Shown here: positions 16,295 to 62,299 of the stretch, one piece after another
How the letters are laid out: each line of letters starts with the position of its first letter
Position numbering within the stretch: position 1 is the first letter of the stretch
DNA from: Ditylenchus dipsaci
Lineage: Eukaryota > Nematoda > Chromadorea > Rhabditida > Anguinidae
Length of the DNA: 64,000 nt
Assembly: GCA_004194705.1 (NCBI GenBank)
Contig: SADC01000766.1
Span: forward strand, 1-64,000
Direction of reading: 5' to 3'
Translations under genes and position numbers: made by a program
Notes under the pieces: model-generated
What the model was told of the DNA's origin: nothing
The model's database searches: none
The model's input: only the letters and a program-made list of their open reading frames with translations

Positions 16295-16989
16295 AGAAAA
16301 TTCAAGTGCTGAAGTAGCGATCTTTTCGATATTCATAATCCAGAAATCCCAGTGACGTTTAGTCTATTTTTTATCATATTTTACGGTTATCCATAGAAAA
16401 GGACCAAAACCAGGTCAGGGCCAAGCAAAAATAGTATTTTTGACATTATATTCCGAATCAATTCCAGATCAAGGAAGCCGAAAGCAAAAAAAACTGTCAG
16501 TCAAAATTGCGTCAGAACAAAAAGTTACGGCCGTTTAAAGTCGGGGCATTTTTTGAGCCACCCTGCATTAGGGTGACTGCCACACGATTCGATACAAATA
16601 CTGATTCGATACGACGATTCGATACACCGACGGTTCGATACACCGATTCGATACATCGACGATTCGATACACCGATTCGATACATGGACGATTCGATACA
16701 CCGATTCGATACATTTATATAAAAATTCAATATTCTCACTATTTTAAACATTTTGACGTTAAAACATGCAACTCTTAATCCGTATACAGGTAAATTTTTG
16801 TTCCTGCTATTTGAGCTGGGATAATGAACTACCTTCAAACAGTAATTTGCTTGTGAAATTTTATTGAACTCAGAGTAGTCAACACAATATTTTCGAACAG
16901 AGTTAGTAACATATCATAACATGTAATTAGAACAATTGAATCCCATCTGGATTTTCTTCTATGACACCCACCAGGGCTTCTTGCGGTAC

Positions 16990-18922
16990 TTAAATATGAT
17001 TTTCATCCGCCAGCTGGTTAGCTTCGACCTCATCATTAGCAAGTATCTCTCTAAGAACCAACAAGTAAATAAATAATTTCAGTACCACAAAAATTACCTG
17101 TAATCCGCTGCGTTAATGCCCATCAGTCGACCAACTCTTTTGAGGTATTTTGACAATTTGCGCATGTATAGGTCACCAAGAAGGACTCCATCATCCGATG
17201 AAAGAAATCGGAGCAACTTATCCTGAAAATAACAAGAACAAATTCATAGAAGGAAAAAGGGTATAATGGCATTATATGACCCTATTAAATTGGTGGCAAA
17301 TATTTTTTTCTGGACTGGTCGCATTATAGCAAAATAGGGTACTTATACGGTTCCTCCCCGTATCGAAATTTTTTCAAAAATAGATTTAAACCATTTCTAA
17401 GCGATTCTTACACGCTAAAACCGATAAAAAACGTTGTTTCCAACGACTTTCCATCAAACAATTTGACTTTTTTAGATTTTCTACCTGCCTGCCTTCGGCA
17501 GGCAACCTAATTCAATAGGAAGCCCCTTTGGGGGTACATGGTCCGGGATAAGGGCTGACCCTTCGTATATCAAGAAATATATCAAGGAAATTTTCACCTG
17601 TTACAGTTACCACCAAGAGATATAGATATACAGTTGACGCTCGATATAACAAACCCCCGATATAACGAACTCTCAATATAAAGAACTATTTTTTCGGTTT
17701 GGTTGGATTTCTTTAAAAAACTAGTCAAACAAACGCTGTATAAAGCGAACGCTCGATACAACCAACGCTCGATATAACGAACACTTGGACCGGAACTTTT
17801 CCAAAGAGATTTCAGGACATCGGGACCGGGACTTTAGACCAAATTTTCCGGGACCAGGACTGGTTCCGATCCCGGTCCCGTCCTCATCACTAGTAGGCAG
17901 CCATGTTTTGCAATCTCAATTGGAAAAGCTGAAGTTTTCGAGATTTGGAGGCAGATGACCTCTCAGAATACGTACTTACCTGGTACGGGTGTTGTGACTA
18001 ATAAAATCACTATTTTGGTCATAATTTTGAATCGGGAGCGAAATGTCCCGGGGAGCGAAATGTCCCGGGAGCGAAATGTCCCGGGAGCGAAATGTCTCGG
18101 GAGCAAAATGTCCCGGGAGCGAAGTGTCCCGGGAGCGAAATGTCCCGGGAGCGAAATGTCCCGGGAGCGAAACGTCCGTGTACCTAAAAAAATCATACCA
18201 CCATGAAGAAGCAGTTTTTCACCAGCATGTGGATTCCCGATCATTGCTTCTGATCCTCGCAATGTTAGACGCATAGCCTGGTTTTCCGCTGCTAGGAATT
18301 CTTCAAAGGTAGTGATTCTCGGATACTTCTTACGTTTCGCTCGATTGAGGGCTCTTTCCGTTGCGATAACACTCCCGACGGCTGCAGCGCGAATAACGTT
18401 AAAGTCTGAAAAAAGTAAACAGCTTTGGTGAAAATGTAATTTGTTACTTACCTTCTTCAGGCAGTCGACTATACTCGCGCACTAGCTTTTGATCGATTCT
18501 TACTCTTGATGCAGCTGATTTTCCATTAACCCAGCCGCCAGCTCTGCTTGAATGCTTCGACGAACATTTATTCCAGTAACCTGATAGAAAAAATCTATAA
18601 CATAAAATTTGGAAAATTTACAGAACTTACCATGTTGACGTTTTTCGGTTCACAAAAATGGGGATACCCTTTTTACGTCACCAATCCATTCCATTGCAGT
18701 AAGGTTGAACTTGACCAAAGAGACCGTTGATTGCTGGGCTTGGCCGACGTCCTTCATCGTTTGACACCCGGAACATCGAAAGTAGGCTTGTTCCGCATGA
18801 TCCTTAATAGCTGTTCGGCCTGTTTTCGTCCAAATGTAGCAGCCGACTCCATCTTCAGTGTATGTCATAGGCGATGTTCTTGCTCCAATACGCTTCGAAT
18901 GTACCAGTTTCGCGTTAGCCAT
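16990..18922 (-). CDS. Gene carried by the foldback element, possibly FLYWCH-like N-terminus
   Basis: Minus-strand exons are about 18922-18652, 18580-18452, 18404-18189, then 17222-17098 and 17050-16990. The first begins MANAKLVHSKRIG and holds an aromatic/Cys segment, YFRCSGCQTMK, that loosely resembles the end of a FLYWCH zinc finger. Later segments include RVRIDQKLVREYSRLPEE, then ATERALNRAKRKKYPRITTF and EEFLAAENQAMRL, which resemble the linker before MULE transposase cores. The final exons give RFLSSDDGVLLGDLYMRKL and end EVEANQLADENHI before TAA. The 18452/18404 and 17098/17050 junctions keep frame. The join across 17223-18188 does not, because repeats fill it and an exon may be lost there. 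No DDE triad is seen. A MULE-related or accessory protein is the best guess. Confidence 0.5.
18036..18172. repeat. GGGAGCGAAATGTCCC minisatellite
   Basis: Nine or so direct copies of a 16-bp, partly palindromic unit GGGAGCGAAATGTCCC lie here. The last unit changes to GGGAGCGAAACGTCCGTG followed by TACC. That terminal AAACGTCCGTG is the complement of the CACGGACGTTT motif ending other foldback elements here. This may be a solo arm of another family, sitting inside the element at 16566-19240. No partner arm was found. Confidence 0.65.
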
Positions 18923-19769
18923 TTAATTATAACCTGTGATGAGAAATATATATCAAAAAATAGGGAGTTTGGTCAGACATCAAATATTTGGACTTTACAT
19001 TATTTCTAAATAAAATAATGACTAGCTAAGTGAGTGTATCGAATCGGTGTATCGAATCGTCGATGTATCGAATCGGTGTATCGAATCGTCGGTGTATCGA
19101 ATCGGTGTATCGAATCGTCGATGTATCGAATCGGTGTATCGAACCGTCGATGTATCGAATCGGTGTATCGAACCGTCGGTGTATCGAATCGTCGTATCGA
19201 ATCAGTATTTGTATCGAATCGTCAGTATACCCATTAGGGTTGTCAAATGAGAACATCCTTGACTATATATTGGGACAGCATCTAGATTTTTGTCACTAAC
19301 ATAGAACTGGCACAAAATATTTTGCATATTTTTGCGAAAACTGACTTTTGCTGTCAAATTTCCTGTTTGCCTCCCGACCGAGAGAATTATTGTCCCGTCA
19401 CGGAATTTTACTTGGTCCTGGATTCGTGTCTCAATTTTTTTTTGTCATAATTTTCGTACCGTCCGTCCGAAATAGGCCGTCCTCAATCCTCATTTAATAC
19501 CGGTCTTAATAATATTGGCCAACCCTAGGACACACTTGTTCAAGTATTGATCCAAGCCTGCCAAATATAACTTTGCTATCCAACAGTACAAAAAAATTCA
19601 ATTGCATACGTTGTCATATTTTTAAGAATCAAGATATGAAAGAAGCTAAACTTGGGGTAAAAGAGACCACCATGAAGAGAAGTATCTAAGATGCTCTTTT
19701 CACTTTTATATGTAAAGTATTAGGCATTCTAAACATTTTCATATGTTTTTTCCTTCTTTAGATATCTAA

Positions 19770-20555
19770 ATGGGTTCAGTAAAATCAAAGCTCGATTTCC
19801 GAAAGCTTCGAAATGACAAGTTGGAATCGAGTCAAACCGTCTATTGTTCCACCGACACAAGTCTGAGCACCTTTTCTGCCGAACAAAGTGCGGAATTATC
19901 AAACTATTGTGAAAATTCAGCGCCTGCATCCAGCGTCATTTCTTCAAATTCTGGCAATGGTTTCACTACAACTTCTAGTTCAAGGGATCTCGAGAGCACC
20001 AGTGATGATGACTCACAGAAACTTATTTTGCATCGGTTAAAATTTCTCTTTTGTAGTAAAAACTTTTTGACCACCCTTTTTCAGGACATTTGCAACTAAG
20101 CGCAATAGTTCGGGCGGTTGTGAAGGAGAAAGTCTTCCATCAACTTCGGACAGCCAGAATAATAACGCGGACATCTCTTCTAGTGAGTCTTCCACTCAAA
20201 GCATGTCTTCCATAGAGCCTTCAGATGCGGAGAAAACAGCTCAGTCAAGTGATAGCACACAAGATACCTCGGACAGCATTAGCAGCTTTTCCACTCTGGT
20301 TGGTAGTGAATGTAATACGTCATTGTTTCAGCCTATTTTGCCAAAGCAGTAGGTCTTGCACTCTTTTATATTTGAATTGAATGATGCCTTAATGAAATAA
20401 TATTCAGGTCAGATTTGGTATGGCAGGAAGCAGTCAACAAGTACCACCAAGAAGAATGTGGCTATGTGATTCCCAAACTTTTGTCTGATTCTGCAGCTGC
20501 TTCTACAATGGTGGTCGACGACTGTACTGAAAGGGCTCAGGAAAAAGTTGACTGA
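19770..20555 (+). CDS. Serine-rich hypothetical protein, possible N-myristoylation, 225 aa
   Basis: Three exons (19770-20035, 20085-20348, 20408-20555) join in frame to give 225 residues with no defects. A TTCTTTAG acceptor lies just before the ATG, which suggests a 5' UTR intron. The protein starts MGSVKSKLDF, and Gly2 with Ser6 and nearby Lys fits an N-myristoylation site. Residues 20-160 are strongly Ser/Thr/Asp-rich and look disordered (for example STQSMSSIEPSDAEKTAQSS). The C-terminal 50 residues, with WQEAVNKYHQEECGYVIP, look folded. I recognise no family. It lies between two foldback elements (ending 19240, starting 20693). Because it is intact while many neighbours are broken, it may be under selection. 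Confidence 0.6.
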
Positions 20556-20692
20556 ATGACTAGCACATTTATGTGAATGGCTAGGAAAAAGATCTATTTG
20601 TGTGCGTGATTGTACTCTGTCGCAGTAATAAAGCAGTTGACCCTGGTACAGAACCTAGAAAAAAGTGCGTAACACAGTTATTAGTCACAGCT

Positions 20693-21265
20693 TTCGTACG
20701 CGTTACCACGCATTTGGGCACACCGCATTTGGGCACACCGCATTTGGGCCCCCGCATTTGGGCCCCCGCATTTGGGCACCGCATTTGGGCCCCGATTTTA
20801 AAATTCTATATTTTTAAATTATAAATTGAAATTTGTCAATTTTTCGGGCCACGGACGTTTGACCTTAAGCCGCTTCGTTGACACGCATTTGGGCCGCATC
20901 CCATACCATGTACCCCAAAGGGTCAGCCCTTATCCCGTACCATGTACCCCCAAAGGGTCAGCCTTTATCCCGGACCATGTACCCCCAAAGGGGCTTCCTA
21001 TTGAATTAGGTTGCCTGCCGAAGGCAGGCAGGTAAAAAATCTAGAAAAGTCAAAATTTTCGAAGGAAAGTACTCGGACCTGAAATGAATACAAATTTTAT
21101 TACAAAACAGTAACATATTGATACATTTCAATTTATAATTTCAAAATATGGAACTTTAAAATCGGGGCCCAAATGCGGTGCCCAAATGCGGTGTGCCCAA
21201 ATGCGGGTGCCCAAATGCGGGTGCCCAAATGCGATGTGCCCAAATGCGTAGTAACCTTCGTACGC
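20693..21265. mobile_element. Foldback element with GCATTTGGGCACACC minisatellite arms
   Basis: The direct repeat TTCGTACGC lies at 20693-20701 and 21257-21265, a perfect 9-bp duplication. The left arm starts GTTACCACGCATTTGGGC and repeats GCATTTGGGCACACC about six times. The right arm is the complement, ending GCCCAAATGCGTAGTAAC. The core (about 20840-21060) starts with the terminal sequence of another family, GGGCCACGGACGTTTGACC. It then carries CATGTACCCCCAAAGGG copies and the hairpin GCCTGCCGAAGGCAGGC, which are also in the element at 61519-62290. No protein is encoded. Confidence 0.8.
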
Positions 21266-21780
21266 TGGCCTACCCCAAGCCTAAACTTGTTGTTTGCAAG
21301 GGTAGTTACAGCGATTTTGAAACGGCTGATTTTGGGGGCGGGGGGGGGGGTATTCTATACTAGCGCCAAGCAGTTTATATGGTTTTGTGGTGCGATAATT
21401 TTTTTATACGGCGATATTCATGAGGAACAAGATAAAAGTGTTTACACACCAAAATGATTTCAGAAAAATCAGGTAGCGAGCAAAGGTTTAGCCCGGGAAG
21501 AAATGAGCACTATTAAGGGCACGGTCCCTTAGAATTCGAAAATGTAATCATCATACGATTTTCGCGCCAAATTAAAAAAATTAAATTTTTTTCTGAAATT
21601 CTGATAAATTGGACTCAAGCTTGGGTGAGACTTGTAACGGATTTTTTCAATTCTTTTTTTGGGCAAACTTTATAGCAAACGCTTTATCACACCCAGGGCC
21701 TTACAATAAGCTACCACTTGCCTCTAAAACATGCAAATTTTTGGAATTTCAATCACTAAAATATTAGGACAAACACAGAC

Positions 21781-22056
21781 ATGCGAAGTCGTTCTGCCAG
21801 CAAATTCATCCAGGTGTTGGCATTGAGTGTATGTGCAATGCACAGCTGTGACTCTGGCCTAGATCATCCGAAATTTTTAGCAACAATTGACAGGGTGTTG
21901 TTCCGCCCTCTGCAGCTTTACAGTCCTCCACTTCTTGACGTTGTTCTTCCAGATGTATGTGGAATGCCATATTTTGCTGGTTGTCCCATGTCCGCAGATT
22001 TTGAGCGGCAGAGATATGAACAGCTCGAAGAGAATGGGCTAAAAATGATTTGTTAA
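21781..22056 (+). CDS. Small cysteine-containing protein, possible signal peptide
   Basis: This 91-codon open frame starts MRSRSASKFIQVLALSVCAM, a basic stretch plus hydrophobic run that fits a signal peptide. About 70 residues follow with cysteines in CDSG, DVCGM, AGCPM and a final C. I recognise no family. It has no visible splice partners and lies among repeats, so it could be a chance frame, but the signal-peptide form and even composition make it worth listing. Confidence 0.3.
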   Translation: MRSRSASKFIQVLALSVCAMHSCDSGLDHPKFLATIDRVLFRPLQLYSPPLLDVVLPDVCGMPYFAGCPMSADFERQRYEQLEENGLKMIC

Positions 22057-22149
22057 TTCACAAACATGAATCAAAATTTTTTCCAGCCACAGCGATTGAC
22101 ACTACAAATTTTCCAATCAGTTGCTTTAAAAGGGATTACAGATACTTCA

Positions 22150-22420
22150 TCAATTTCAATTTCAAAAGCCTCAATTATAACACCGGATTCGTGTTCAGCG
22201 TGGTCGATTCGCAAATGAAAATGCTCTTAAAATTGAAAAGTCCTTGTCAAATTTAGTTTTCCGCTCAAGACAATAAACATTTGAATTTCAAATTTGAATA
22301 TTTTTTGTCTCGAGAAGAATTGAAAATTTCACTGTTACTTTTTATTTTAAGACTGGTTTTATATGCAAATCGACCACGCTGAACACGAATCCGGTGTTAT
22401 AATTGAGGCTTTTACTAGAG
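22150..22420. repeat. Palindromic repeat (CCTCAATTATAACACCGGATTC)
   Basis: The left half has CCTCAATTATAACACCGG followed by TTCGTGTTCAGCGTGGTCGA. The right half has the complement, TCGACCACGCTGAACACGAA then CCGGTGTTATAATTGAGG. The two halves pair to form a MITE-like hairpin with an AT-rich centre. Confidence 0.6.
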
Positions 22421-23084
22421 AGTACGAAGTTGTAGTAAAGTTGCGTTACAACTTATATACTGCTTTCACATAATTTGTCCTAATTTTATGATAAACTATT
22501 TCTTTATTTAGTGTCAAAATAATCGCGAGATTTTGTTCTTTCATTTTTATTTGACTATTTAGCTAGAAGTGATTTGTATGCAGAGTTATGCCCATTTTAT
22601 TGTCAAAAACAAGAATATCCACAAAATGTATATTTGAGGGAAAATAAAAAATTCTCCGTGAATTTATAATCACTCTGTGGCAAGTTTGGGCGCAAAAGAT
22701 AGCTCTGATCTGGCTCACCATTTTAAGATGTTATTTGCTTTGTTGGAATAGGAATATAGGAGAGAAGCACCTGAAAGAAGCTGAAAATTCAATAATCTGG
22801 AAGGTCACATTTTCGACAATTTTAAATTGCTCGGATCTCAAAAATTTCAATTAGAAGTGCAAAAACAAATTGCACCATCGTGTTCAGCGTGAAATTCTGA
22901 GTCAGAATCGACAGAAATCACAACCAACTGTTGTCGTGTTAAGTAAGAAAAGTGGAGCGAGTATTGGTCCGGTGTAGCAGAGGGAACTAGATGCCCCGTC
23001 AGGGGCATCTATAGGAGTTTTAAAAAAGTAACAATTTTGCCAACATGCATAGAATAACAATGTGAAGCCAATCAAGAGAACATA

Positions 23085-23712
23085 CTACTCCTTTACTTTA
23101 AAGTCCCAGCCTTTGATTTTCTCCAAACAATCTCGAGCAAGATGAACGTCTTCGAAATCTAGTATGATTGTACCACCGTCACATGGCAGATGAATTTCAC
23201 TAGGCTCCCGAGCTGGCACCTGAAACAATAAAAAGCTAGACCTTAGTGAAGTTATATGAAGTTTCCCGCCCTTTTAATAGACATCTTAATTTGTTTTGTG
23301 TTAGAAAGCTGGTGTCCACTGTCGCAAGAATAAAAATTAAAACTAGCCTGCATTTCTGTCCTGAGGTAGGCGCTGACTGGATCGACGAATTTGGGCTCCT
23401 CGCCACGGAAACGAGAAGTGTTAAGCAAATTCTTCAAACGCATCTGAACTGCCTGATACTGACGAGTCGAGGACCAATTAGGCAGATTGCGCAGATACTC
23501 AAGAGCCGCTTCAGATTACTGCTTGCTAGTAAATCCAGACTTCCAAAGCTCTAATTCATTCATCTCAGCCCATTTCTAGAGCACATCTTCATGCTCTCCC
23601 ATCCAGCGGTCATATCCTTTTATTAAGACACTGTCTCCGTAATAGCTGGCTGAATATTTCGACCAACGGGGGTTTTCTTTACGCGCTTAAAGGTAGTTGG
23701 CTTCATTCTCAC
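23085..23712 (-). pseudogene. Unrecognised gene with in-frame stops
   Basis: A minus-strand frame reads from about 23712 to 23350, then an exon 23219-23085 follows a TTTCAG acceptor. Segments include RWSKYSASYYGDSVLIKGYD, KWAEMNELELWKSGFTSK, LEYLRNLPNWSSTRQYQAVQ, RFRGEEPKFVDPVSAYL and, in the last exon, CDGGTIILDFEDVHLARDC and EKIKGWDFKVKE before TAG. The first part contains TAG before KWAEMNE and TAA before SEAALEY in an otherwise protein-like frame, and no clean donor follows MQA. I recognise no family. The two stops look like CAG/CAA to TAG/TAA changes, so it is probably a decaying gene. Confidence 0.45.
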
Positions 23713-24299
23713 TGGAAAATAATGGGGTTTCAGGCAAAAATCCTCGATGTCAAAACAACATAAATTTTCGCTGTTCTCCATCTATTTTATTATTATCCTG
23801 ATCGATGAGGGCTAACAAGTGCGGATTTTTAAAAATCTTCTAATTGTCAATCGAACATGGCCTTATCTCTGAAATCTTAGTCAAAAAAAGGGGGTGGGAT
23901 TCTATTAGAGAGTGAGCTTCTATTAGAGAAAATGCGGTAATTTTCAAAATTTTATCATTACCGGTAAGCATAAAAAAATATCACTGAGAAGGAAACCACC
24001 CGTGTTGTGAATGTAAACTCCTAAAAGTTATATTCGCTTTTAAAAATTCCGCTGTTAGAAGAATTCGCTTTTAGAAATAGTTTCTATTTTTGCTCTATTT
24101 TGGTTGGTTTAAAATATTTAGGGGTGACTTTAAATATTTTAGTTTTAGAAAATATTTGATCAGATGAGTTTATTACAGAAATTTTAGTCTTTCAATAAAG
24201 AACAAGAAATTACAGCTCTGGCCAAAGCAAAAACATTCACTAACTACGTTTAGAGAGAGAAAAAGCGAGTCTGATTTCAGCTACAGTCAAACCTCGATA

Positions 24300-26096: not shown

Positions 26097-26109
26097 GAAA
26101 TTTGCGACT

Positions 26110-27660: not shown

Positions 27661-27679
27661 CGCACTCTTAGTTAAGGGA

Positions 27680-38215: not shown

Positions 38216-39149
38216 TCTATCCGAGACTTATATCCTCAAAGAAATAAAATTACAATTTACTCACGTTAACACGCCCAATACGAATATGTAACCCTGTATA
38301 TTCTAACTCAGAGCTTCACGCAGAACACGATGGTGCCGGTCCTTCACGCCTCAATCATTGACGGACTAGCTGAAAAAGGATCGGGAAGGTAACAATGTGG
38401 ATGGTCAAGATACAACTGGATACCCATAGGGTTCGAGTGGTGGGTCGTGATTGTTATACTGCACCCACGCTCATAATACACCAAGGTGACCAGGATTGGT
38501 TAGGCGCCGAGCGTAGAAATGAAAATAGAGCTGTAAATCGTTCTTCGAATTTTCTTCAAACAGTGTCATACATAGAAACAGAGCTGATTAAATTCTGACC
38601 TGATAATATGTGGGTCAAAACAAGCGTTTGATTATAGAAAAAAATTGAGTAAAAGTGCCTTGAACATGCCGGGCGCTCAATTTTTGATTTTTAAGCCGAA
38701 AATTCTAGCGCCGCGGCTGTTCAAAGCACTTTTACTTAGTTTTTCTATAATCAAACGATTGTTTTGACTCACATCTTATCAGGTCAGAATTTAACTGGCT
38801 TTCTTTCTATACATAACTATCTTCAAGGTGAATTTGATCTGAACGATCTACAGCTCTTTTATCATTTCTACTACCCGGCGCCTAGCCCGGCACTTAACCA
38901 AGCATCAAAATGACTGCCACGACCTGTTTTTTTTCGAATGAGTGTACTTGAGCTAAAAAAGATAGACAACCAGGGTCTAACTCACAAAACCACCATTTTC
39001 TCGCCTCACAAATTTTCACTTGAAAACCGCTACCTATAACTCCTCGATGCTTGACCAATACTTGTAGAAAAATTCCAGAGCTACAATATAGGCATACTAG
39101 AAATGCGCCAATCGCATTCGCGGCCTGTCCAAAAACTAAAGTTACCATA

Positions 39150-40852: not shown

Positions 40853-41946
40853 GGCTAGGGAAACTTGCCAAAAACGAAATTTGCCGAACGTATGTTTTGC
40901 CAAAACGAAATTTGCCAAAACGAAATTTGCCAAAACGAAATTTGCCAAAACGAAATTTGCCAAATCGAAATGCGCCAAAACGAAATATGCCAATAGGAAA
41001 TTTGCCGAAACGAAATTTGGCCAACGAACCAACAGGGGGACCAAGGCAGTTTTTACGTATTTTTTCAAAATTTTCGAAATTGTGTCCTAACTGTCCTAAC
41101 CACCTAAAATCACCCCAAACCAGCGAAAACCATCCAAAATCACCCAAAACCATTCAAAATCACACAAAACCACCCAGAAGACCAAAAACCACCAAAAACC
41201 ATTCAAAACTTCACCAAACAAAAATTTAAATTTATAAATTTAATTTAAATTTTTAGTCTGAACCAACCAAACCAAGTGGTCGTCGACTTGGATCGAATTT
41301 TTTTTTACGTTTTTGGGTTCCAAAACCTATTTTCTGGACTTATTCGTGCACGCTGAACACGGTTTGACAGTGGTAAAATCACGTTTTATGAAGAAATTTT
41401 TGAGTTTTTGGGGAATAATTGATTTTGGTAAAATCAATTATTTGCCAAAACGCAAAAAATAACTGAGAAAACGGCATTTTGCCACTGTCAAACCATGTTA
41501 AGCGTGCACGAATAAGTCTAGAAAACTGGTTTGGAACCCAAAAACGTAAAAAAAAATTTTTGATCCAAGTGGACGACCAGTTGGTTTGGTTGGTTCAGAC
41601 TAAAAATTCAAATTCCCGCAAAATTTTGTTTAGTGTAGTTTTGGATGGTTTCGGGTGGTTTGGGGTGTTTTGGTTTGTTTAGTGTGATTTTGGGTGGTTT
41701 TTGCTGTTTTAGGTGGTTTTTGGTTGTTTGGGGTGGTTTTAGGTGGTTAGGACACAGTTTCGAAAAAAACGTAAAAACTGCCTTGGTCCCCCCTGTTGGT
41801 TCGTTGGCCAAATTTTGTTTCGGCAAATTTCGTTTTGGCATATTTTGTTTTGGCGCATTTCGATTTGGCAAATTTCGTTTTAGCAAATTTCGTTTTTGCA
41901 AATTTCGTATTTGGCAAATTTCGTTTTTGGCAAGTTTCCCCTAGCC
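40853..41946. mobile_element. Foldback element with CCAAAACGAAATTTG minisatellite arms
   Basis: The ends are GGCTAGGGAAACTTGCC and the complement GGCAAGTTTCCCCTAGCC, flanked by GAAAATTC at 40845-40852 and 41947-41954. That is an 8-bp duplication, or 9 bp with one mismatch. The left arm has about eight CCAAAACGAAATTTG units and the right arm the complement. Inside each are GGGGGACCAAGGCAG and CACCCAAAACCA-rich spacers, and the centre is the 350-bp foldback MITE (41249-41610). The whole 1.1 kb is one long palindrome. It was inserted between direct units GAATTTCTCGTTTGGA. Confidence 0.8.
41249..41610. repeat. Foldback MITE (GTGGTCGTCCACTTGG family) at the centre of the element
   Basis: This palindrome starts TAGTCTGAACCAACCAAACC and ends GGTTGGTTCAGACTA, with central AATTGATTTTGGTAAAATCA. 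It is very close to the copy at 10775-11126, which has the same flanking spacers. The MITE is therefore part of the foldback element's structure, not a random later insertion. Confidence 0.8.
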
Positions 41947-43910
41947 GAAAATTCCTCGTATGGATAATTCCTCGTTTGGCGAAGTGCTCATTCGGGAATT
42001 TCTCTATTGGAGAAAAATGTTTGGAGAATTACTCGTTTGGAACTTTTTCTTTGGAATTTGTGTGCAACCCTTAAAACCAGCTGTTTCCCTGGTATCGAAA
42101 TTTGAAAGGTATTTTGGCTTATTGCTGACCGAATTTCTATAGAAAATTGAGAATGTAATATAGCAAAATTATCAGCGTGAAAAATGTAACAGAATTAATA
42201 CAAAGACTCACAAGACAACAAGCAAATATAACAATATCCAAGCCAAAAAAATTTGACCCTAAACCCCACGAAAAACCAGGGGCTTTTGGACGAAAATTCA
42301 CGTGGTTGTTACTTGCTTTTACAATTTTTTAAAAAATTTTTAGAGCATTTTCAGAAAATAAAATTATCAAGTGATAGAGCGCAAAAAACTGCATCAGAAA
42401 TGATGATTAGATAACAACTGAGACTTTGTTTCTTTATCTTTTAGAGGTTTGAAGAACCATGCTGGCACCCTGGTCATAGATGGACATTTCTGGGTTTTTT
42501 TACTACGGTCTGAAACTAACACATTTCTTGTAAAATTTAGATAATATAAGCGGAAAAGACTCATCGATGTCTTGGCTAGATTTTAGTATACAATTTGCAA
42601 GAATATTGTGTTAAAAAAACTGACTCCAAAGTTCATTAAAAATAAACCAGAAATGTCCATCTATGACCAGGCTGCCAGCATGGTTTTTTATGCCTTTCTT
42701 GTAGCTCTTGAATTTCTCTACATGGATTGACCAAGCATCGAAGAGTTATACGCAGCTATGACATACTCTTGAGCGGTTTTAAGTGAAATTTGTGAGGCGA
42801 GAAAATGGTGGTTTTGTGAGTTAGACCCTGGTTGTCTATCTTTTTTAGCTCAAGTACACTCATTCGAAAAAAAACAGGTCGTGGCAGTCATTTTGATGCT
42901 TGGTTAAGTGCCGGGCTAGGCGCCGGGTAGTAGAAATGATAAAAGAGCTGTAGATCGTTCAGATCAAATTCACCTTGAAGATAGTTATGTATAGAAAGAA
43001 AGCCAGTTAAATTCTGACCTGATAAGATGTGAGTCAAAACAATCGTTTGATTATAGAAAAACTAAGTAAAAGTGCTTTGAACAGCCGCGGCGCTAGAATT
43101 TTCGGCTTAAAAATCAAAAATTGAGCGCCCGCATGTTCAAGGCACTTTTACTCAATTTTTTCTATAATCAAACGCTTGTTTTGACCCACATATTATCAGG
43201 TCAGAATTTAATCAGCTCTGTTTCTATGTATGACACTGTTTGAAGAAAATTCGAAGAACGATTTACAGCTCTATTTTCATTTCTACGCTCGGCGCCTAAC
43301 CAATCCTGGTCACCTTGGTGTATTATGAGCGTGGGTGCAGTATAACAATCACGACCCACCACTCGAAACCCTATGGGTATCCAGTTGTATCTTGACCATC
43401 CACATTGTTACCTTCCCGATCCTTTTTCAGCTAGTCCGTCAATGATTGAGGCGTGAAGGACCGGCACCATCGTGTTCTGCGTGAAGCTCTGAGTTAGAAT
43501 ATACAGGGTTACATATTCGTATTAGGCGTATTAGCCCAAAAATTAAAACCGAAAATAGCACTTGTGATTAAAGGGGGCTCCTTTTCATATGTGTTGTATC
43601 GGTAATAGATAGAATAATAGTAGTGCCTAGAGCAGTACCGACAACAAGAATAGTTTTAAGCTTTATAACAGAACAGACTATACAGCAATACGACACAAAC
43701 AATAACTTAATAGAAGCTGTGATACAACCACAGCACAATATATTTCCGCTCGAGACAAAAGAGCAATTCAAATACGAGGTCATCACAACAATATGTCAAT
43801 ACCATTTTAACGTCTTGTGATAGTCAATTTTTAGAATGAAAAGAAAAAATCCTTTCCTTAGTTATTCGCGTATAAAATTATTTCGGATACGTTACAGCAC
43901 CATTGACAGT

Positions 43911-47414: not shown

Positions 47415-47419
47415 TCTTT

Positions 47420-49196: not shown

Positions 49197-49860
49197 GGCA
49201 AGCATGGTGAAACCAAAACACTGGAGTCGTCAATTTTCGTCGAAGATGATAACAAATTTGAGTGCAGGTTTTGCGGGATGAAATATCGAGAAAATGCTAC
49301 CAGTATGGACTATCATCTTACGGTACAATTTCTATTTTACTAAGGTTGTTCATGCGTATTTTGATACTTAATTCAAGAACCAGTGCACGAAAATTGGAGT
49401 GGAAGCAATCAAAGTGATCGACGAATTATCTGGCATTAAGCGCAAATTGGAAGCAAATGGAGAGATTCCAAAGAAAATTGTCAAGGAATCCGAGGAGAAC
49501 AGCGGTCGACCGAACACACCAAGGATCAATAGCTATTTCGATAAGATCGGCAAAGAAGATCAGGATGAGGCCGACATTCTTCTTACTAGGGTTTCTGAGG
49601 AGGAGCTATGCTTGGGAAACTGTGAAAACGATGAATGCTCTAACTTGGTGGAAAGCCTGGTTCTCGGATACATTGCTATGCAAAGTCGTTGAAATGCTTC
49701 ACAATGTGCCAATCTCTGCCGCCTCGACCGAAAGAAACTGGTCCCTTCGAGGTGGGATCCACACAAAGCTTCGAAATAGGTTGGTTATTTTATCTGTTTG
49801 CATGAATTTCTAGTGAGCGTTGTTTATTTTCTTCTTTAGAATAAAGCTGGACACCGCCAA
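49197..49860 (+). pseudogene. hAT transposase remnant: BED finger joined to C-terminal domain
   Basis: The first exon (to about 49323) ends FECRFCGMKYRENATSMDYH. The next starts with NQCTK, completing a C-x2-C ... H-x4-C BED zinc finger for DNA binding. A linker with RINSYFDKI follows, a usual hAT motif. After DECS the frame shifts to ALTWWKAWFSD, then VPISAASTERNWSLRGGIH and TKLRNRL, the hATC dimerisation signature. The RNase H-like catalytic core of several hundred residues is missing, so this copy cannot transpose itself. Confidence 0.85.
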
Positions 49861-52480: not shown

Positions 52481-52619
52481 TCAACAAACGAATTCATCAT
52501 ATAAGGTCTTACAGGGTATTTTTCGAGTATTGGGAGATAATTGATTTTACCAAAACTGGATTTCACCGAAACTCAAAAAATACCCTATAAAGCGGCATTT
52601 CACCATTATCAATTCATCT

Positions 52620-53345: not shown

Positions 53346-53439
53346 ATTTACCAGGATTTAAACCTGTAACCAAAATAAAATGTGTCGATGAATTTCGCTG
53401 TCGATGAATTCGGTGCCACCCAAAAAAAGGGCAATACTT

Positions 53440-54480
53440 TTTTCAGTCATAGATTCACTTTTTTTCTGTCACAGATTCACTTTTTTTGTCACAGATTTCC
53501 TCTTTTCTTTCACAGATTTGCCCCTGGCCACACTACTTGGTCTTGGTCGATGTCGACTTTTTTGAACTTTTTTTGTGGCCAGAGATGATTTTTTCTAGTA
53601 CCATTTTTATGTTTTTTATACCAAACAACAGCTCAGGATCTAAGCTTTTTCGCGTATCAAAAATATTTTAAAAAATATAACAAAAATACATATGATGGTC
53701 TAAAAGTTGTAGGTTAGTCGATGTCACGGTCGAGGTACATCGACCTCGACATCGACTAACCTACAACTTTTGTATTATTACACGAACTTTTGTCATTTAG
53801 ATCAAAAATTGTTTGGTGTAAAAGAAAGCTTAGTTCCTCAGCTATTGTTTGGTATAAAAAACATAAACATGATACAAGAAAAAATCATCTCTGGCTACAA
53901 AAGAAGTTCCAAAAAGTCGACCTTGACATCGACCAAGACCAAGGAGTGTGACCATAGCCTTGATTCTTGACATGAAATCCACAATTTTTAAATTTTTTTG
54001 TGTGAAATTCAGGGGTGGGCAAAGACCAGATGGCTCAGGACTCACTCCGGAATGGCCAAAAGGCCGAAATAATTGGTTTTTCGGGGTATGCTAAAGGGGG
54101 AGTAAACTTTTTAAGAAAAACCGATTGAGTGGATCAGATTTCGGTTCCGATGGGCTTAATCGCCCACAACTCCACCCTGAACCACCAAAAACCTGGAATT
54201 CTGAGCGATTAAGCCCATTGGACCCGAAATATGATCCGCTCAATCGATTTTTCCTAAAAAGTTTACTCCCCCTTGGTAAACCCCCGAAAAACCAATTATT
54301 TTGGCCTTTTGGCCATTCCGGAGTGGGTCTCCAGCCATCTGGTCTTTGCCCGCCCCTGAATTTCACACAAAAATTTTTAAAAATGGTTGATTTCGTGTCG
54401 AGAATCAAATTTGTGACAGAAAAGAGGAAATCTGTGACAGAAAAAAGCTCTGCCCCCCCCCCCAGAAATGGCAAGTTTTT
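53440..54480. repeat. Three nested or adjacent palindromes
   Basis: The outer arms are TTTCTGTCACAGATTCAC and (54410-54450) GTGACAGAAAAGAGGAAATC. A first inner palindrome at 53535-53960 has TTGGTCTTGGTCGATGTCGA and its complement. Its own core hairpin is AGTTGTAGGTTAGTCGATGT (53705-53770). A second inner palindrome at 54000-54365 has GGGCAAAGACCAGATGG and its complement, centred on CCTGAACCACC. No coding content is visible beyond mirrored frames. Confidence 0.7.
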
Positions 54481-54489
54481 TGCCCTTTA

Positions 54490-55110
54490 TAATTTACAAA
54501 TAGGCAAAATGTATCCCTCAGGGACATCCGTTGTCGGAGACGGTAAAGGCCCTTTAAAAATCGTCAGTCTCGACACTAAGTGTTTTAGTGCCATAAAATA
54601 TTTTAAACACATTTTAAATTTTTCATAAAATCTGAATAAATGAAAAATTAAGCCACATAGAAATCGCCCTGAAAAGAGCAGGAGATTTCGATTTTGGCAA
54701 CGACTTTCGTGGATCAATAAGTTTTCGAAATTTTTTGTAGTTTCGGCTGTCACATGGAGTAGCGGTGAAAATAAAAACATTTGAAAATTTTGGCTGAAAT
54801 CTCAGAAAAAAATGCTTTCAAGGGCGATCTATAGAATCGATCTGTAGAAGTGCACGTTAAAGGGCATGCACGTGCGTTAAGGCGCGAACTAGCAGTTTTT
54901 TTCGATTTTTTCGAATGGTCCCATTTTAATATAGATGACCTTATACTGCTTTTAAAATTTAGACAGAAAACTTAAAAAATCTAGACGAGAACGAATGTAA
55001 AAATTTATCGAGAAAGAAAAGAACTGCTGGTTCGCGCCTTTTCTCCCCATCGGCACGATCATGCCCCTTTAAAAATGTCCGAAATCTTCGTATATGTAAA
55101 AAGCCGATCT
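54490..55110. other. Non-coding interval
   Basis: AT-rich sequence without a recognisable gene. It separates two nested palindromic clusters. Confidence 0.35.
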
Positions 55111-55763
55111 AAATACCGTATTTTTCTTAGGCTTGGCAGCGGGACGGGAATCCCACGGGAATCCCGGTTTGGGAATCCCAAAAATAATCACTTTCCCGTT
55201 CCCGTTTCCCGCCGTTCACTTTTCGAAAATTCCGAAATTTTCCCCAAATCCAAATTCAAATTTATTTAATGTCAAAACAAAAAAAGTTTGCTACTAAGAA
55301 ATTTTGCTGGTCATTTCTTTTGTCATTTCTCGTGGAACGTCTTCTTCAACAGAATAACGGCTGAGAATTTAGGAATCTACTTACTGTGAGAGCAAGCTTT
55401 TTTCATTTCTGAAACCAAGACCGTACCAATTGTTTGTTCCGGCGAAGATTTTTAAAATTAAAGATCACTCTCTACATACTATAACTATATTTACACACTA
55501 TATTTTCATACTGACATCTGTCACAGTGTATTTTTTTATCGTCTTGTAGCGAAAAAAATAGGATCTCGATCGAAAACAACATGAAAAAATGTGAAACAAA
55601 TGATTGCAGTAGTTTTACAGTGATATTTTGGAAGATATTTTGCATGACAAAACTGGGTTGACTTCGGAACTCATGCTGACTCCGGAGTCATCTATCTGAC
55701 TCCAAAGTCATCGATTTGACTCCGGAGTCATCGATTTTAAAGCGTGACTTCGGGAAGTCTGAG

Positions 55764-56012
55764 TACCGTATATTCTCTATTAGAAGGCCCCTCTCTAATA
55801 GAAGGCCTCCCTTGAGGACCTATATATCAGCCTAGAAAAAAAATTCGCAAATCTGTTTTTCCCGTTTTCTTAGTTAGCACGAGCTTACCTGATTCCACTT
55901 TTTAAAATTTTGGTTGAGCACGCGAAAATCTCAAAATCGATTCAAATTTTTTCCGACTTTTTTAGGGTTGAAAAATAGAAGGCCGGGCCTTCTAATAGAG
56001 AATATACGGTAG
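55764..56012. repeat. TACCGTA-family MITE
   Basis: TACCGTATATTCTCTATTAG and the complement CTAATAGAGAATATACGGTA bound the element, with AAGGCCCC interior blocks in place of the usual TCCCC. It lies within the nested cluster. Confidence 0.75.
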
Positions 56013-56293
56013 GCCTTTATTGATTTGTTTGTTTTGATTTGTTTGGAGAAAAAAGGCATAATATGATTTGGTTTGCGAAAAAGCTGAAATAGGTCACGAA
56101 AAAGATTATTTATCCCACAAAAAATTAGAACTTAAATATTTCTAAGTTTTTATTATAACTTTTTGTTGACTTTTTTAGTATTGTGTAGCCCAGGATCTCA
56201 GCTTTCTAACAAGCTATCAACTGACCAAATTGATGTTTCAAAAAGATGGAAGAAAAGGTCTTTGAATAGAGCAAATTTTTCCAAAATTTGGTC

Positions 56294-57475
56294 CATTTGA
56301 AGAAGTACACCCCGTTTGTGTCTAAAACCGTTTGTGTCTAAGGCCGTTTGTGTCTAAACCGTTTGTGTCTACGCCGTTTGTGTCTAAACCGTTTGTGTCT
56401 AAACCGTTTGTGTCTAAGGCCGTTTGTGTCTAATTTTTTAGATAACCTAATTTATTTTTATTGACTTTTTTCATCATTAAACCACAGTCAACCCCTAACA
56501 TAGTGACACTTTGCGACACCTTTAATATAGTCACACCTTATTGTCGGCTAGCACACAGGTGTTGGTACTCAGATAATGGTCCTCAGGCAGCTATTTCCGA
56601 ATGGTCCCACTTTGGTGCTGGTACTCATGTAATGGTATTCTGGGGCGTTAAGCGAATCAATCCACATCCCGTATTGGTCCATACACGAATTGATCCATAC
56701 TTTTAAAATTCGTGCATTAAGAAATTTTTTTTGTCTGAACCAAATTTTTGGGTATTAAAACCTGTTTTCTGGATTAACTCGGGCATGCTGAGAATGGTTT
56801 GATAGTGGTAAAATGGCGTTCCGTCAGGTATTTTTTTGGTATTAGGAGATAATTGATTTTACAAAAACTCGATTATACCAAAACTCAAAAAATATCCTAC
56901 AAAACGGCATTCTACCAATATCAAACGACATTCAGCATGCCCGAATTAGTCCAGAAAATAAAGTTTGGGACTTGAAAAGCGAAAGAAAATTTTGATCCAA
57001 GTGGACGACCACTTGGCTTAGTTAGTTAAGACTTGAAAAATAAATTCCCACAAAATTTTGTTTGGAGTAGTTTTGGATGATTTCGGGTTGTTTTTTTGTT
57101 GGTTTCAAGTGTGTTGGGTACTTTTAGTTGTGTTTGGAGGTTTTGGGGGTCTTGAGGTGGTTTTGAGTGGTTTAAGGTGGTTCAGACACATTCTAAAATT
57201 TTTCGAAAAAAACAACAGGGGGACCAAAGCAACTTTTGAATAAAAAAAATTGACGAAAAGTCTATTTACCGTAATTCACATTGCAAGGGTGAGGGTAGGA
57301 GTGCACAATACAAATGGATTAGGTTATGTAAAAACTTAGACACAAACGGCCTTAGACACAAACGGTTTAGACACAAACGGCTTAGACACAAACGGTTTAG
57401 ACACAAACGGTTTAGACACAAACGGCTTTAGACACAAACGGTTTTAGACACAAACGTCCGTGTCCCCATTTGAAG
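56294..57475. mobile_element. Foldback element with CGTTTGTGTCTAAAC minisatellite arms
   Basis: The 9-bp direct repeat CATTTGAAG lies at 56294-56302 and 57467-57475. The left arm, 56310-56435, repeats CGTTTGTGTCTAAACC about eight times. The right arm, 57335-57460, is its complement, ending CACAAACGTCCGTGTCCCC, whose complement starts GGGGACACGGACGTTTG. The core carries a GGCGTTAAGCGAATCAATCC piece and a foldback MITE (56733-57037) with the same spacer (GTAGTTTTGGATGATTTCGG) as at 41640. No protein is encoded. Confidence 0.8.
56733..57037. repeat. Foldback MITE at the core of the foldback element
   Basis: The palindrome has GGTTTGATAGTGGTAAAATG and its complement around AATTGATTTTACAAAAACTC. 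The right end is GACGACCACTTGGCTTAG. The left end is shortened to TTTGTCTGAACC. Confidence 0.7.
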
Positions 57476-57954
57476 ACCTTTTACACCAACTATTTGAAAT
57501 ATCATTTAGTCAGTTGATAGCTTGTTAGAAAGCTGAGATTCTGGGCTACAAGCTATTGAAAAAATTTTGGAAATTTCGAAAAAATTTAGAAAAAATGCCA
57601 ATTTAATGTCAATTTTGCTTTTTCGTGAGATAAACAATCTTTTTCGTGACCTATTTCAGCTTTTTCGCAAACCAAATCAGTATAAGCCAAGAAAAATCGC
57701 AGAATTGTGGATTTTCTCTCTTATTTCACAAATTCCCGTTTCCCGTCGGGATTCCCGAAATTTTGGAATTCCCATTCCCGTTTCCCGCAGGAGCAATTTT
57801 TTACAAATTTCCATTCCCGTTTCCCGCCCGGACCCCAAACTGCCAAGCCTAATTTTTCTGATTCTGCCACAGGACGAAATTTTCGACCTTTCCGAAAATC
57901 GGAAAGAATCTGGGTCGATTTTGAGATCTTCGGTTGCTCAACCAAAATTTAAAA

Positions 57955-58203
57955 GACCATGGTTTTTGCGCGCAGCGGTTGTCCCCGCCAATTTAAATTT
58001 TTTCCCTATTCATTAAACTTTTGTACGGAATTTTCAACTTAGTTTCTAATAAAACTACACCTAAAATCAAATTCTAGGTCTTGTTTTGTTAGAAACCAAG
58101 TTGAAAATTCCGTACATAAGTTTAATCATTGAACTTTAATGATCAGGAAAAAATTTAAATCGGCGGGGGACAACCACTGCGCGCAAAAACCATGGTCCTT
58201 AAA
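57955..58203. repeat. Palindromic MITE, AGACCATGGTTTTTGCGCGC ends
   Basis: The left end is ACCATGGTTTTTGCGCGCAG, then GGTTGTCCCC. The right end is its complement through GGGGACAACC to CCATGGTCCTT. The centre is AAATTCTAGGTCTTGTTTTG. It is the same family as 44100-44375. Confidence 0.8.
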
Positions 58204-58389
58204 AAGCGGTATCGGTAAGGTTCGTGATAGTTAAAAGAGCGTGGTAGTCACATTTACTTAATTTAATGTAAGAGCTCTTACACCGGGTATTTACGAATTC
58301 TCCCTTATCTGTTTTACCTTCCAGGTGATTAGCTTGTAAAAAAAGTTTGATCAATTGTCAAAAGTAAAATGCAATCATGGACCAAATTG

Positions 58390-60961
58390 ATGTATGTGAA
58401 CTCCAACAGATCTAGCTCGGTGAAAATCATTAAGTTGAGAAATTACTGGTAAGGAGCGATATTTAGTTAAACAAATTTTCGCTAGCTAGTATTAAATTTT
58501 AGCAATTCGAATAAAAGCGTTCCTCCTGTGGTAACTCGTCTGTTGGATAGATGTACAAAACCGTTCATACAAAAGCAACCTCTAGAATTGGCGAAGAAGT
58601 TGGCAAACGATGTGCTTTCTCATAATAATTCGGGTAAATCATCTTTCTCCGTGCTACAAACTGACTTATGTTCTGCTTTTTCCAAATAAAATTATTTGCA
58701 GCTGCTTTAACCGGTATCGAGCGACCGAAAATTGAAGAGATCTTCAAAAGCAATCAGAATTCCTATGATTCCAATACGCAATTTGAGAGATGCAAGTCAG
58801 TGATCTACAGACTTCAATAATTTTTAGTAATTAGTTGTCTAATTTAGTCTTGAACTGGTGGAGTCTATACCGACAGGATTGGAGTTTCCGGGGAAAGAGT
58901 GCCACACTAGCACCTATGATGCATGGCTCAGTTTATTGAAGAGCGCTGAAAAATCGATTGGTTAGTGGTCGTAAAATTTCTGCTAATTTAAAATTTTCTC
59001 AGATATTGTCGCATTTTACTGGAGTTTGACGGATAAGACAGGCTATGAAACATCTTGGCAGGTCAGGAAAATGCACCATTAGATGCATAAATGGCTTGAA
59101 TCTTTATTTCAGGGGAAAGAAATTCTCGATGCTATCGAGGCTGCAGCTCAAAGGGGTGTGAAGGTGCCTTGAAACTTCTATAAAATTTTTGAGCCAATTT
59201 TCGTTTAGATAAGGATAGCTCAACATGTTCCTGGTAAGATCTTTCAACAGGAGGAGTCTGCTGATTTGGCTGCGCGTGGTAGTCTTTTTCTTATGCGTTT
59301 ATTGATCCGGTTTTATAAACCTATTTTTAGGTCTGGCGGAGGTCCGAAACCTTAATTTTGCTGCTTACGGAGCCGGCGTATTGCATACAAAAATGCAAGT
59401 GTATCTATTTTCTTTTTCAATTCTGCATAGGTTTTAACTCTCAGGTGGGTGGTAGACAACAAACACATTTTCCTTGGATCTGCAAATATGGATTGGCGGT
59501 CGCTGACTGAAGTCATGCGTTTTCTTGCATTTGGTCTTCTCAAGGTTGGGTTTAGGTCAAAGAGCTGGGAGTCGTCGTAAGGAACAATTCTTCTGTGGCT
59601 TTGGACATGGGGAAGATATTTTCTGTATATTGGGAAATGGTAATGACTTTCCTGATTTAGTTTAGTACATGGCATTTTTAAGGGTGATCGTAGGACGCCT
59701 CCGCACAAGTGGTCACGGGAAATGGAGACCAATTACAATGAAGTAAACTCTGTCTATTTACCCGAAAACAACTCAATTTATGTGTTTTTTTAGGATAATC
59801 CCCTTCGCCTTCAATGTGTTTTGGACGATGGCAAGAATGGTGCTAAAGGCGAAAATGTGGAGGTTGAAAATGTTTTTCAAAAAGTTTCCAAATTCTTTCA
59901 TTATCAGTCTGAAGATCCTATTTCGACATATTGTAAAGCCAATATCTTTCTCTCGGTAATATTGCATGTTGAAGCATCTCATTGAGGAATAATTTTTAGA
60001 GCTGTCCTAGAGAATTCAATCCCAGGGGCAGAGAACACGATCTAGGTACGCATCTATTTTGGTCATATGTAGTGTCAAGTCATACATTAGTGTCTTTTTA
60101 TTTTATTTTATTTAGAATTTATTTTATTTAGAAGCAGTCATGTTTGGTAATCTTTGCTGTTTGTTTTAAATTCGAAGTGGACTCCTAATTACAAATGTTA
60201 AGCCATCGAAAACGCTGCCAAATACATCAGGTAAATTTTTAAAGTATATTTTGGAAAATACAATTTTTAGAATATCCGTTATGGAATACTTACCTGCAAC
60301 TTTCTTTATGCGACGAAACAATCGGTTAGACTTTTCAATTCTTTGCTTTTTTCACCATGTTGTTTAGTTATTGGCCGAACATAGATAACGCACTTCGTGC
60401 TGCTGCATTCCGTGGGGTCAAAGTGGATCTTTTAGTAAGCAAGTGGAAGCATACGAAGAAGGAGATGGTTCCTTATCTAAAATCGCTTCTTCAAATCAAC
60501 CCGGCTTTAAGATCTGGTCAAATTTCCGTGGTTAGTTGATGTGGTCAGTAATCCTTCGTTTTAAGCAGCACTGTTTTCAGAAAGTCTTTACTGTTCCATC
60601 GGATGATAAGCAAAGTCAAATCGATCATGCCAGAGTGAATCATGCAAAGTATTTGGTCACTGATAAGGTCGCATACATCGGTGAGTGAGTAGCCCTTCAT
60701 AGAAATTAGGCATTTTCAAGTCTTGCCCTAACCTTACTCATTTCTATAGGAACCTCCAATTGGGCAGGAGACTACTTTATTACAACTGCAGGTCAGTTTC
60801 GTGGAAGAACGTCCTACCATCTTCGTGTAAATTTGTTTGTCTATTTTTCAGGTGTTAGCATGGTCATTGAAAGTGTAGATTCTCGCGAGATTGTTGAAAA
60901 GTTCAATCAGGTCTTCTTGCGCGACTGGAATTCTGAATATGCGAAGTCATTGGATTTGTGA
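58390..60961 (+). CDS. PLD3/PLD4-like phospholipase D family protein, with frame defects
   Basis: PLD3 and PLD4 are lysosomal single-strand exonucleases of the phospholipase D fold. More than a dozen short exons are visible. They encode [58 protein letters not shown] and GAGVLHTKM. The first HKD motif continues as [20 protein letters not shown]. Then come [56 protein letters not shown], and the second [23 protein letters not shown]. It ends [13 protein letters not shown]. The N-terminal membrane anchor is not seen. Defects are a one-base phase change inside the first HKD (HTKM to WVVD), and two one-base losses near 60185-60202 that place TAA in frame. Both losses look like homopolymer shortenings. 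Everything else splices in frame, so it may be functional in the real genome. Confidence 0.8.
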
Positions 60962-60999
60962 GTAGCCAGTCCCACTGATCTCTATGTTCTAGAGTATGT

Positions 61000-61325
61000 A
61001 ATAGTATGGTGTGTAAATCTTGTTGTTGTTGTTATTGTTACTTCTTGTTGGTTTAAAATAAATTTTATGGTCTGCTTAGTAATTATTTATATTGTGATAT
61101 TTTTCTTTGAATCAAGGGCTGGTCTGAGTGGGTTTTCTTTGGGTCGGAATAGTTTCCCAATTGAACCTGCAAATGTTCTTTTAAGGAACCTTATTTACGG
61201 CTCACCCACATTGTGATTAAACTTTTATGTAAATTCATCATTAGAACAGTCTTTTGGCCAATAATTAAAATGTCAAGAAAACGTTTCATGACATAAATTG
61301 TGCTGGAATTAAACATGTTTACAGA
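61000..61325. other. 3' flank of the PLD3/4-like gene
   Basis: No gene is seen. A GTTGTTGTTGTTATTG microsatellite lies near 61020, and AATAAA-like signals near 61060 could serve polyadenylation of the upstream gene. Confidence 0.4.
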
Positions 61326-61329
61326 AAAT

Positions 61330-61510
61330 TGTTATACAGTCAGGTGGATATCCACCCGTCCAGCTGGCACCCATTCCACATTTTGTCACCCGGATGAGTA
61401 AATAGCTATTTTGGTATTACCAAACCGGTTTGACCAGGCTATTTTAGGGTAGTAAAAACGATTTCTTTTCATGTTGGCTCAGTTTTATTTTTACCGGGCA
61501 GCCAGGTGGA
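61330..61510. repeat. Satellite monomers (CAGGTGGATATCCACC family)
   Basis: CAGTCAGGTGGATATCCACC, CACCCATTCC, TTTTGGTATTACCAAACCG and GGGCAGCCAGGTGGACATTC fit the monomer tandem at 63240-64000. The foldback element at 61519 is inserted in this array. Confidence 0.6.
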
Positions 61511-62299
61511 CATTCACGGGGCCACGGACGTTTGACCTTAAAGCCGTTTGACCTTAAAGCCGTTTGACCTTAAGCCGTTTGACCTTAAGCCGTTTGACCT
61601 TAAGCCGTTTGACCTTAAGCCGTTTGACCTTAAAGCCGTCTAACTCTAAAAATTTGCAATTTTTGCATTTCGAATCCGTGCTTTCTCTACTCCGTTTCTT
61701 GAAGTCAAGGTTTTTTGATTACATATATTGCTGTCATTTCATTGACCACACATTCGCGACGGTCGTTGAATTCTTTTTGGTCATAGAATACTTGCTTCGT
61801 TGACACGCATTTGGGCCCCAATTATAAAAATTTTATATTTTTCAACGCAGATGTGTTGTACGTATTAGAACTGGTGCTGCACTAAGAAAAAGCTATGTGG
61901 GTCATCAAAGGGTCAGCCATTATCCCGTACCATGTACCCCCAAAGGGTCAGCCCTTATCCCGGACCATGTACCCCCAAAGGGGCTTCCTATTGAATTAGG
62001 TTGCCTGCCGAAGGCAGGCAGGTAGAAAATCTAGAAAAGTCAAAGGAAAATTTTCGATGGAAAGTATTCGGAAACAACGTCTTTATCGGTTTCAGCGTTG
62101 AATTAGACAAAGCACGGATTCAAAATGCAAAAATTGCAAATTTTTAGGGTTAGACGGCTTTAAGGTCAAACGGCTTTAAGGTCAAACGGCTTAAGGTCAA
62201 ACGGCTTAAGGTCAAACGGCTTAAGGTCAAACGGCTTAAGGTCAAAGGGCTTTAAGGTCAAACGGTTTTAAGGTCAAACGTCGCGTACCCACATTCACG
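61510..62299. mobile_element. Foldback element with AAGCCGTTTGACCTT minisatellite arms
   Basis: The 9-bp direct repeat ACATTCACG lies at 61510-61518 and 62291-62299. The left arm starts GGGCCACGGACGTTTGACC and has about seven TTAAGCCGTTTGACC units. The right arm (about 62150-62290) is its complement, ending GGTCAAACGTCGCGTACCC. The core contains TTGACACGCATTTGGGCCCC, which is the end sequence of the 20702 family. It also has two CATGTACCCCCAAAGGG copies and the hairpin GCCTGCCGAAGGCAGGC. No protein is encoded. Confidence 0.85.

Follow-up and report, generated by a model that had tools for sequence, protein, structure and literature searches.

Foldback elements of Ditylenchus dipsaci are probable non-autonomous relatives of FLYWCH-MULE transposons in which array unit and FLYWCH domain travel together

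We analyzed a 64,000-nucleotide stretch of contig SADC01000766.1 (positions 1 to 64,000 of the forward strand, assembly GCA_004194705.1) from the plant-parasitic nematode Ditylenchus dipsaci, hereafter called the window. It holds five foldback-type elements (E1 to E5). The long inverted arms expected of this structural class are present and consist of tandem units of 13 to 16 bp (Table 1). Reading the sequences directly, we find the elements and their arms where an earlier sequence-only reading had placed them, together with its perfect 9-bp duplications around four of the five and its 8-bp duplication at E5. The two arms of E1 are 98% alike over their best stretch. The same reading held that the arm unit differs completely between elements. 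This is true of E1, E2, and E5, while the E3 and E4 units have a common frame, CCGTTTG....TAA. It further held that several elements share a terminal CACGGACGTTT. In our reading, just three termini bear this motif: the right one of E3, the left one of E4, and that of the one-armed array within E1; another copy is buried within E2 (20846-20875). The remaining ends are unlike (GGGTACGCGACG at the right of E4, AAGTACACCCCG at the left of E3, GGTATACTGACG at the right of E1, GGTTACTACGC at the right of E2, and GGCTAGGGGAAAC at E5). Ends common to all five elements were thus ruled out, as those of E1, E2, and E5 differ.

Table 1. Positions in the window of the foldback elements, their target duplications, inner features, and shared cores
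Feature	Positions	Strand	Description
E1	16575..19231		Foldback, 2657 bp; CGATTCGATACAC units; arms 16584-16714 and 19034-19222
E1 target duplication	left 16566..16574, right 19232-19240		CATTAGGGT, exact 9/9
One-armed array inside E1	18032..18183	-	CGCTCCCGGGACATTT units; terminates in GTACACGGACG
Open reading frame inside E1	18653..18922	-	WRKY-like zinc DNA-binding domain; PF03106 match of 21.9 bits (cut-off 21), E 2e-4
E2	20702..21256		555 bp; arms of CGCATTTGGGCAC
E2 target duplication	20693-20701 and 21257-21265		TTCGTACGC, exact 9/9
E3	56303..57466		GTGTCT-type, 1164 bp; unit CCGTTTGTGTCTAAA; right end GGGACACGGACG
E3 target duplication			CATTTGAAG, exact 9/9
E4	61519..62290		GACCTT-type, 772 bp; unit CCGTTTGACCTTAAG; left end GGGCCACGGACG, right end GGGTACGCGACG
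E4 target duplication			ACATTCACG, exact 9/9
E5	40853..41946		1094 bp; GAAATTTGCCAAAAC arms; 8-bp flanks GAAAATTC
Core common to E1, E2, and E4	17412..17563 in E1, 20916-21077 in E2, 61906-62072 in E4	- in E1	90-94% alike, about 120-170 bp; arms differ
Core common to E3 and E5	56745..57212 in E3, 41060-41748 in E5	+ in E3	72-75% alike, about 450-490 bp; arms differ

Searching the genome (226,978,389 bases in 1359 contigs) with the end pattern GGGNCACGGACGTTT, we obtained 284 matches (150 + 134) against 1 (1 + 0) for the reversed control pattern, which places the motif beyond chance. The other end, GGGTACG[CT]GACGTTT + N11 + CGTTT, gave 147 copies against 0 for its control. The conserved end is about 11 bp long, lies to the outside of the inverted arrays, and comes in two unequal versions, GGG[AC]CACGGAC and GGGTACG[CT]GAC, one per element end. 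Among the 100 right ends listed of the 147, the six bases past GTTT were CCCTGT (22), CGTCCC (13), CGTCCT (13), GACCTT (11), GATCGA (11), CCCGCC (9), CGTCGT (5), GACCCT (4), and rarer types. The idea of a short conserved end combined with array turnover is thus borne out genome-wide, as many units carry the same end. An inverted right end among those 100 lies within 6 kb of 29 of the 100 left ends listed of the 284, and a right end in the wrong orientation accompanies only 1.

Mutator-type 9-bp duplications, as the sequence-only reading had proposed, are also seen genome-wide. When both ends lay in the fetched locus (18 elements), 14 showed a perfect 9-bp duplication, one had a single mismatch, two had a match of at least 8 bp with a 1-base shift, and one had no duplication. 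The coding-type elements with recognizable ends (18) showed exact duplications of 8 bp in eight, 9 bp in five, and 10 bp in one, with none in four. The Phantom subclass has duplications of 8 to 10 bp, and 14 of these 18 have an exact one in that range; the 8- and 10-bp cases rule out that the duplications are strictly 9 bp. Neither of the two outcomes that the sequence-only reading had named as refuting it was observed.

Domain searches gave 115 genome matches to the Mutator-like element (MULE) domain PF10551 and 144 to the FLYWCH domain PF04500, both numbers being lower bounds. Among these listed matches, 30 same-strand FLYWCH-MULE pairs lie no more than 2.5 kb apart, and matches to both domains are located inside elements bearing the conserved ends. 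The MULE domain scored 46.4 bits at locus L057 and 39.1 bits at L077 against a cut-off of 27.6, in keeping with a Mutator/Phantom transposase. An N-terminal FLYWCH was found in all three upstream exons scanned (L057, L062, and L078); the FLYWCH model best matched the solved FLYWCH structure 2rpr, with WRKY domains next. At the 30 best of the 115 MULE loci, a 13-17 bp array was always present, and in 20 of them it formed an inverted pair within the fetched stretch. The unit types there were GATCGA, GTTCGA, GTGTCT, GACCTT, CCCGCC, GAGTCC, and CCCCGA, plus others further removed, CGATTCACCCCC, GACATTTCTGTCCCG, and CCTTTCACCCTGCATAT among them. Arrays also accompany 8 of 11 additional FLYWCH-MULE loci (a ninth, L096, has two units only) and 12 of 16 additional FLYWCH loci. 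The many units across these loci rule out a single unit per genome. The ends are alike across units, most starting with GGG and having GAC or GTC directly ahead of the first unit. Transposase-bearing copies occur with the E3 unit (GTGTCT) at L060, L062, L063, and L069 and with the E4 unit (GACCTT) at L077, and E3 and E4 almost certainly belong with these FLYWCH-MULE elements. Two of the GTGTCT-type coding elements, L063 and L062, lie on separate contigs and have an identical right flank and different left flanks, suggesting recombination or an assembly join. Proteins filed under D. dipsaci are 100% identical to pieces of L062 (74 residues) and L072 (98 residues), and we therefore take the searched genome to be very probably that of this stem nematode.

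We compared array unit and transposase across the coding loci, taking the unit strings from our own reading of Tandem Repeats Finder consensus sequences. The FLYWCH sequences of L060, L070, and L078 (frame shifts) and of L075 were dropped ahead of the counts, and L064, L065, and L073 gave no FLYWCH. Piece ends were trimmed for L069 and L096 (FLYWCH) and for L088 and L091 (MULE). Left out of the unit table were L092, L097, L099, L107, and L108, which lack a 13-17 bp array with at least two clean units, and L110, which has only a 20-30 bp repeat; L096 with two units and L098, L101, and L105 with about three were kept on thin arrays. The resulting 44 readable FLYWCH sequences represent 24 array units. 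Every multi-copy unit is monophyletic, both in the FLYWCH tree (14 of 14) and in the MULE tree (8 of 8), and each unit lineage for which a coding copy was read is tied to a transposase lineage of its own. FLYWCH distance correlates with unit distance (Mantel r 0.39, p 0.0002, 23 units).

Between units, FLYWCH is less conserved than the catalytic core in 260 of 261 comparisons, which are non-independent. The trio L057/L062/L077 has 47-50% FLYWCH identity against 76-83% in the catalytic part (L057/L077 reach 55% in FLYWCH by pairwise realignment), and L066/L067 have 37% against 78%. The pair L075/L083 (FLYWCH 0.54, MULE 0.93) looked equally striking and was discarded because the FLYWCH of L075 is interrupted midway. 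The one transposition machinery of the earlier reading is therefore too simple a view, because each multi-copy unit has its own FLYWCH clade and it is the DNA-binding domain that diverges most between units.

In the three closest pairs with different units, FLYWCH changes gather between the zinc cysteines. We compared the segment from the residue preceding the first zinc cysteine through the second cysteine, a segment first spotted by eye, with the rest of the domain. Different-unit pairs at a FLYWCH identity of at least 0.70 form three sets (L059/L085, L089/L090, and L095/L104, with close copies). In the three closest such pairs, the cysteine segment differs at 12 of 26 sites and the remainder at 14 of 136. 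In 13 same-unit pairs, the figures are 4 of 104 and 31 of 583; L085 and L089 serve in both sets of pairs. When one same-unit pair was exchanged and the segment was allowed to lie anywhere in the domain, such clustering was reached by 9 of 2000 site shuffles and by 1 of 560 triples of pairs, namely the observed triple. The L059/L085 units are one base apart, and the L095/L104 FLYWCH sequences have five residue differences in 44. Identity in the cysteine segment versus the rest is 0.62 versus 0.44 for L066 and L111, which have a nearly identical unit (CCCCGAAAAGTT and CCCCTAAAAGTT), and 0.12 versus 0.40 for L066/L067.

Arms and cores of the window elements do recombine or nest, because elements with different arms have common cores and E2 and E4 each contain a scrap of the other's arm. 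A GACCTT-type left end, as in E4, lies inside E2 at the buried motif copy, and one CATTTGGGC unit lies inside E4 at 61794-61845. These scraps may mark nested or hybrid elements. The E2-type join, CAATTTTTC ahead of the end motif, recurs in 9 of the 30 loci fetched from the GGGNCACGGACGTTT matches.

The relation of E1, E2, and E5 to the MULE machinery is suggested by their architecture. Allowing up to 2 mismatches, we found 31 genome matches for E1 (31 bp at the array start), 304 for the E2 right end, and 359 for the E5 end. We compared the ends of all 31 listed E1 matches, of 73 of the 100 listed of the 304 E2 matches, and of 70 of the 100 listed of the 359 E5 matches, and none of them has a MULE or FLYWCH match within 3.4 kb (both domain lists being lower bounds); the 31 listed E1 matches have none within 5 kb either. 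We found no transposase-bearing relative of E1, E2, or E5 around the compared ends. The open reading frame inside E1 could possibly encode a separate DNA-binding or accessory protein, judging from its WRKY-like match. E5 itself is enclosed, in a span of 3.8 kb, by a near-perfect long inverted repeat (38267-39015 and 42786-43533, 99-100%). At 10789-11504 lies a one-sided element related to E5 (92% alike), with one end GGCTAGGGG; its second arm was not seen. Elsewhere in the window, an open reading frame at 49418-49813 (+) resembles a hAT dimerization region, judged by reading the sequence.

Taking these data together, we favor, on balance, the reading that the window elements are non-autonomous members of a large Phantom/Tm1-like FLYWCH-MULE radiation (Mutator superfamily) in D. 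dipsaci, with arrays that would be FLYWCH binding sites co-diversifying with the domain. The MULE (DDE) core would cut at the conserved ends and the FLYWCH domain would bind the tandem units, with gene conversion or unequal exchange keeping both arms on the same unit. A change in FLYWCH specificity together with a matching unit change would create a new self-recognizing family, which non-autonomous elements could join by acquiring its arms.

Several results weigh against co-diversification. A permutation of the best-segment rate ratio, which is noise-dominated, was not significant (118/538), and the hypergeometric version was applied after this ratio statistic had failed. In favor of co-diversification, the cysteine segment still correlates with unit given the rest of FLYWCH (partial correlation 0.17, p 0.005); the rest also correlates with unit given the segment (0.29, p 0.0002). 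The signal is thus in both parts of the domain, and shared descent alone would give likewise. The FLYWCH-unit partial correlation after MULE is 0.18 (n 18); much of the unit-FLYWCH correlation is shared descent. Finally, the same-unit pair L066/L088 has kept FLYWCH (0.75) less well than MULE (0.93).

A rival explanation is one that we regard as unlikely and as the best-surviving competitor. The arrays would not be specific binding sites; slippage and gene conversion would turn the units over, FLYWCH would be the least constrained part of the transposase, and both would drift with time. The weakness of the partial correlations agrees with this, as does a nonsynonymous rate (dN) higher in FLYWCH than in MULE in some same-unit pairs (ratio 3.3 for L066/L088 and 3.9 for L071/L081). 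Against it, changes in near different-unit pairs concentrate in the cysteine segment, while same-unit changes do not favor that segment. Also against it are L066/L091, which keeps its unit and has FLYWCH (0.83) nearly as conserved as MULE (0.85), and L093/L096 (0.97 versus 0.88). Deep same-unit pairs are few, and most pairs with different units have reached saturation in synonymous divergence (dS).

A host repressor, either small RNAs or a DNA-binding protein, might instead target the arrays, so that units change to escape and the transposase follows. The arrays would make large, uniform targets, and they change faster than the conserved ends. We consider this quite improbable: no sign of a host factor was seen, though none was looked for, and clustered changes in the transposase's own DNA-binding domain are explicable without one. 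Least probable of all is that one transposase recognizes only the short end and moves all families with the arrays as passengers, a picture that the near-constant ends and the abundant non-autonomous units without a seen transposase of their own would fit and that at least 24 units accompanying separate transposase lineages speak against.

The architecture has precedents in the literature. Tm1 of Meloidogyne, a plant-parasitic nematode too, has the same 9-bp duplications, a FLYWCH-MULE transposase, and a non-autonomous majority, as well as outer end motifs of 7 bp that are unequal (one of them CCTACCC) and tandem units of about 14 bp, CGATTCAGTATCGC (PMC3169594). The D. dipsaci elements fall outside the Tm1 family proper, as their ends and units differ from its A1/A2 7-bp ends and Motif C CGATTCAGTATCGC, with the architecture being the same. 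Tm1 has a single unit consensus per species (PMC3169594), whereas the one genome of D. dipsaci has at least 24 units with coding copies, and unit and FLYWCH domain covary in it. The Muta families of Aedes aegypti, like the D. dipsaci elements, have FLYWCH (13 of 14 families) and 8-9 bp duplications; 10 of 12 long-TIR (terminal inverted repeat) families have subterminal tandem repeats, Muta1 and Muta5 carry a terminal motif of 8-10 bp and, subterminally, a repeat of 12 or 15 bp in 9 copies, and Muta1 transposes in yeast (PMC5225508). Repeat sequence is not linked to FLYWCH sequence in the available part of that paper, unlike in our analysis (PMC5225508). The anatomy is thus already known from Tm1 and from the mosquito Muta families, and we propose no new kind of element.

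The Phantom subclass of Mutator combines MULE with no finger or a FLYWCH or SWIM finger, has target duplications of 8-10 bp, and varies in TIR length; Rehavkus features a PHD finger, a minisatellite, and a 9-bp duplication (PMC6446971). The accessible account of Phantom does not describe a diversity of units, unlike that of the D. dipsaci elements (PMC6446971). Galileo, of the P superfamily, has arms resembling those of Foldback, in which the zinc domain of the transposase binds tandem sites, and its subfamilies cross-bind poorly; it differs in its transposase superfamily and in its THAP domain (PMC3688188). In a literature search of limited coverage, with most subscription papers outside it, we found no report of unit-domain covariation.

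Binding of transposase by the tandem repeats of Foldback and Phantom elements was stated in 2013 to be untested (PMC3688188). The question becomes directly testable in D. dipsaci, whose genome contains matched pairs of domain and candidate site, at least 24 in number and some of them near-minimal (L059/L085 and L095/L104). We tentatively suggest, with somewhat less assurance than for the radiation itself, that these form a natural library of at least 24 FLYWCH variants, each beside its own predicted binding-site array. The pairs would locate base reading in the zinc-cysteine segment and the WRKYGQK-like strand, and families would arise by paired domain-site change, much like lock-and-key speciation. 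Sequence rules for FLYWCH, a domain also used by animal regulators, may follow from these pairs. If true, this would account for the origin of many non-cross-reacting families within one genome.

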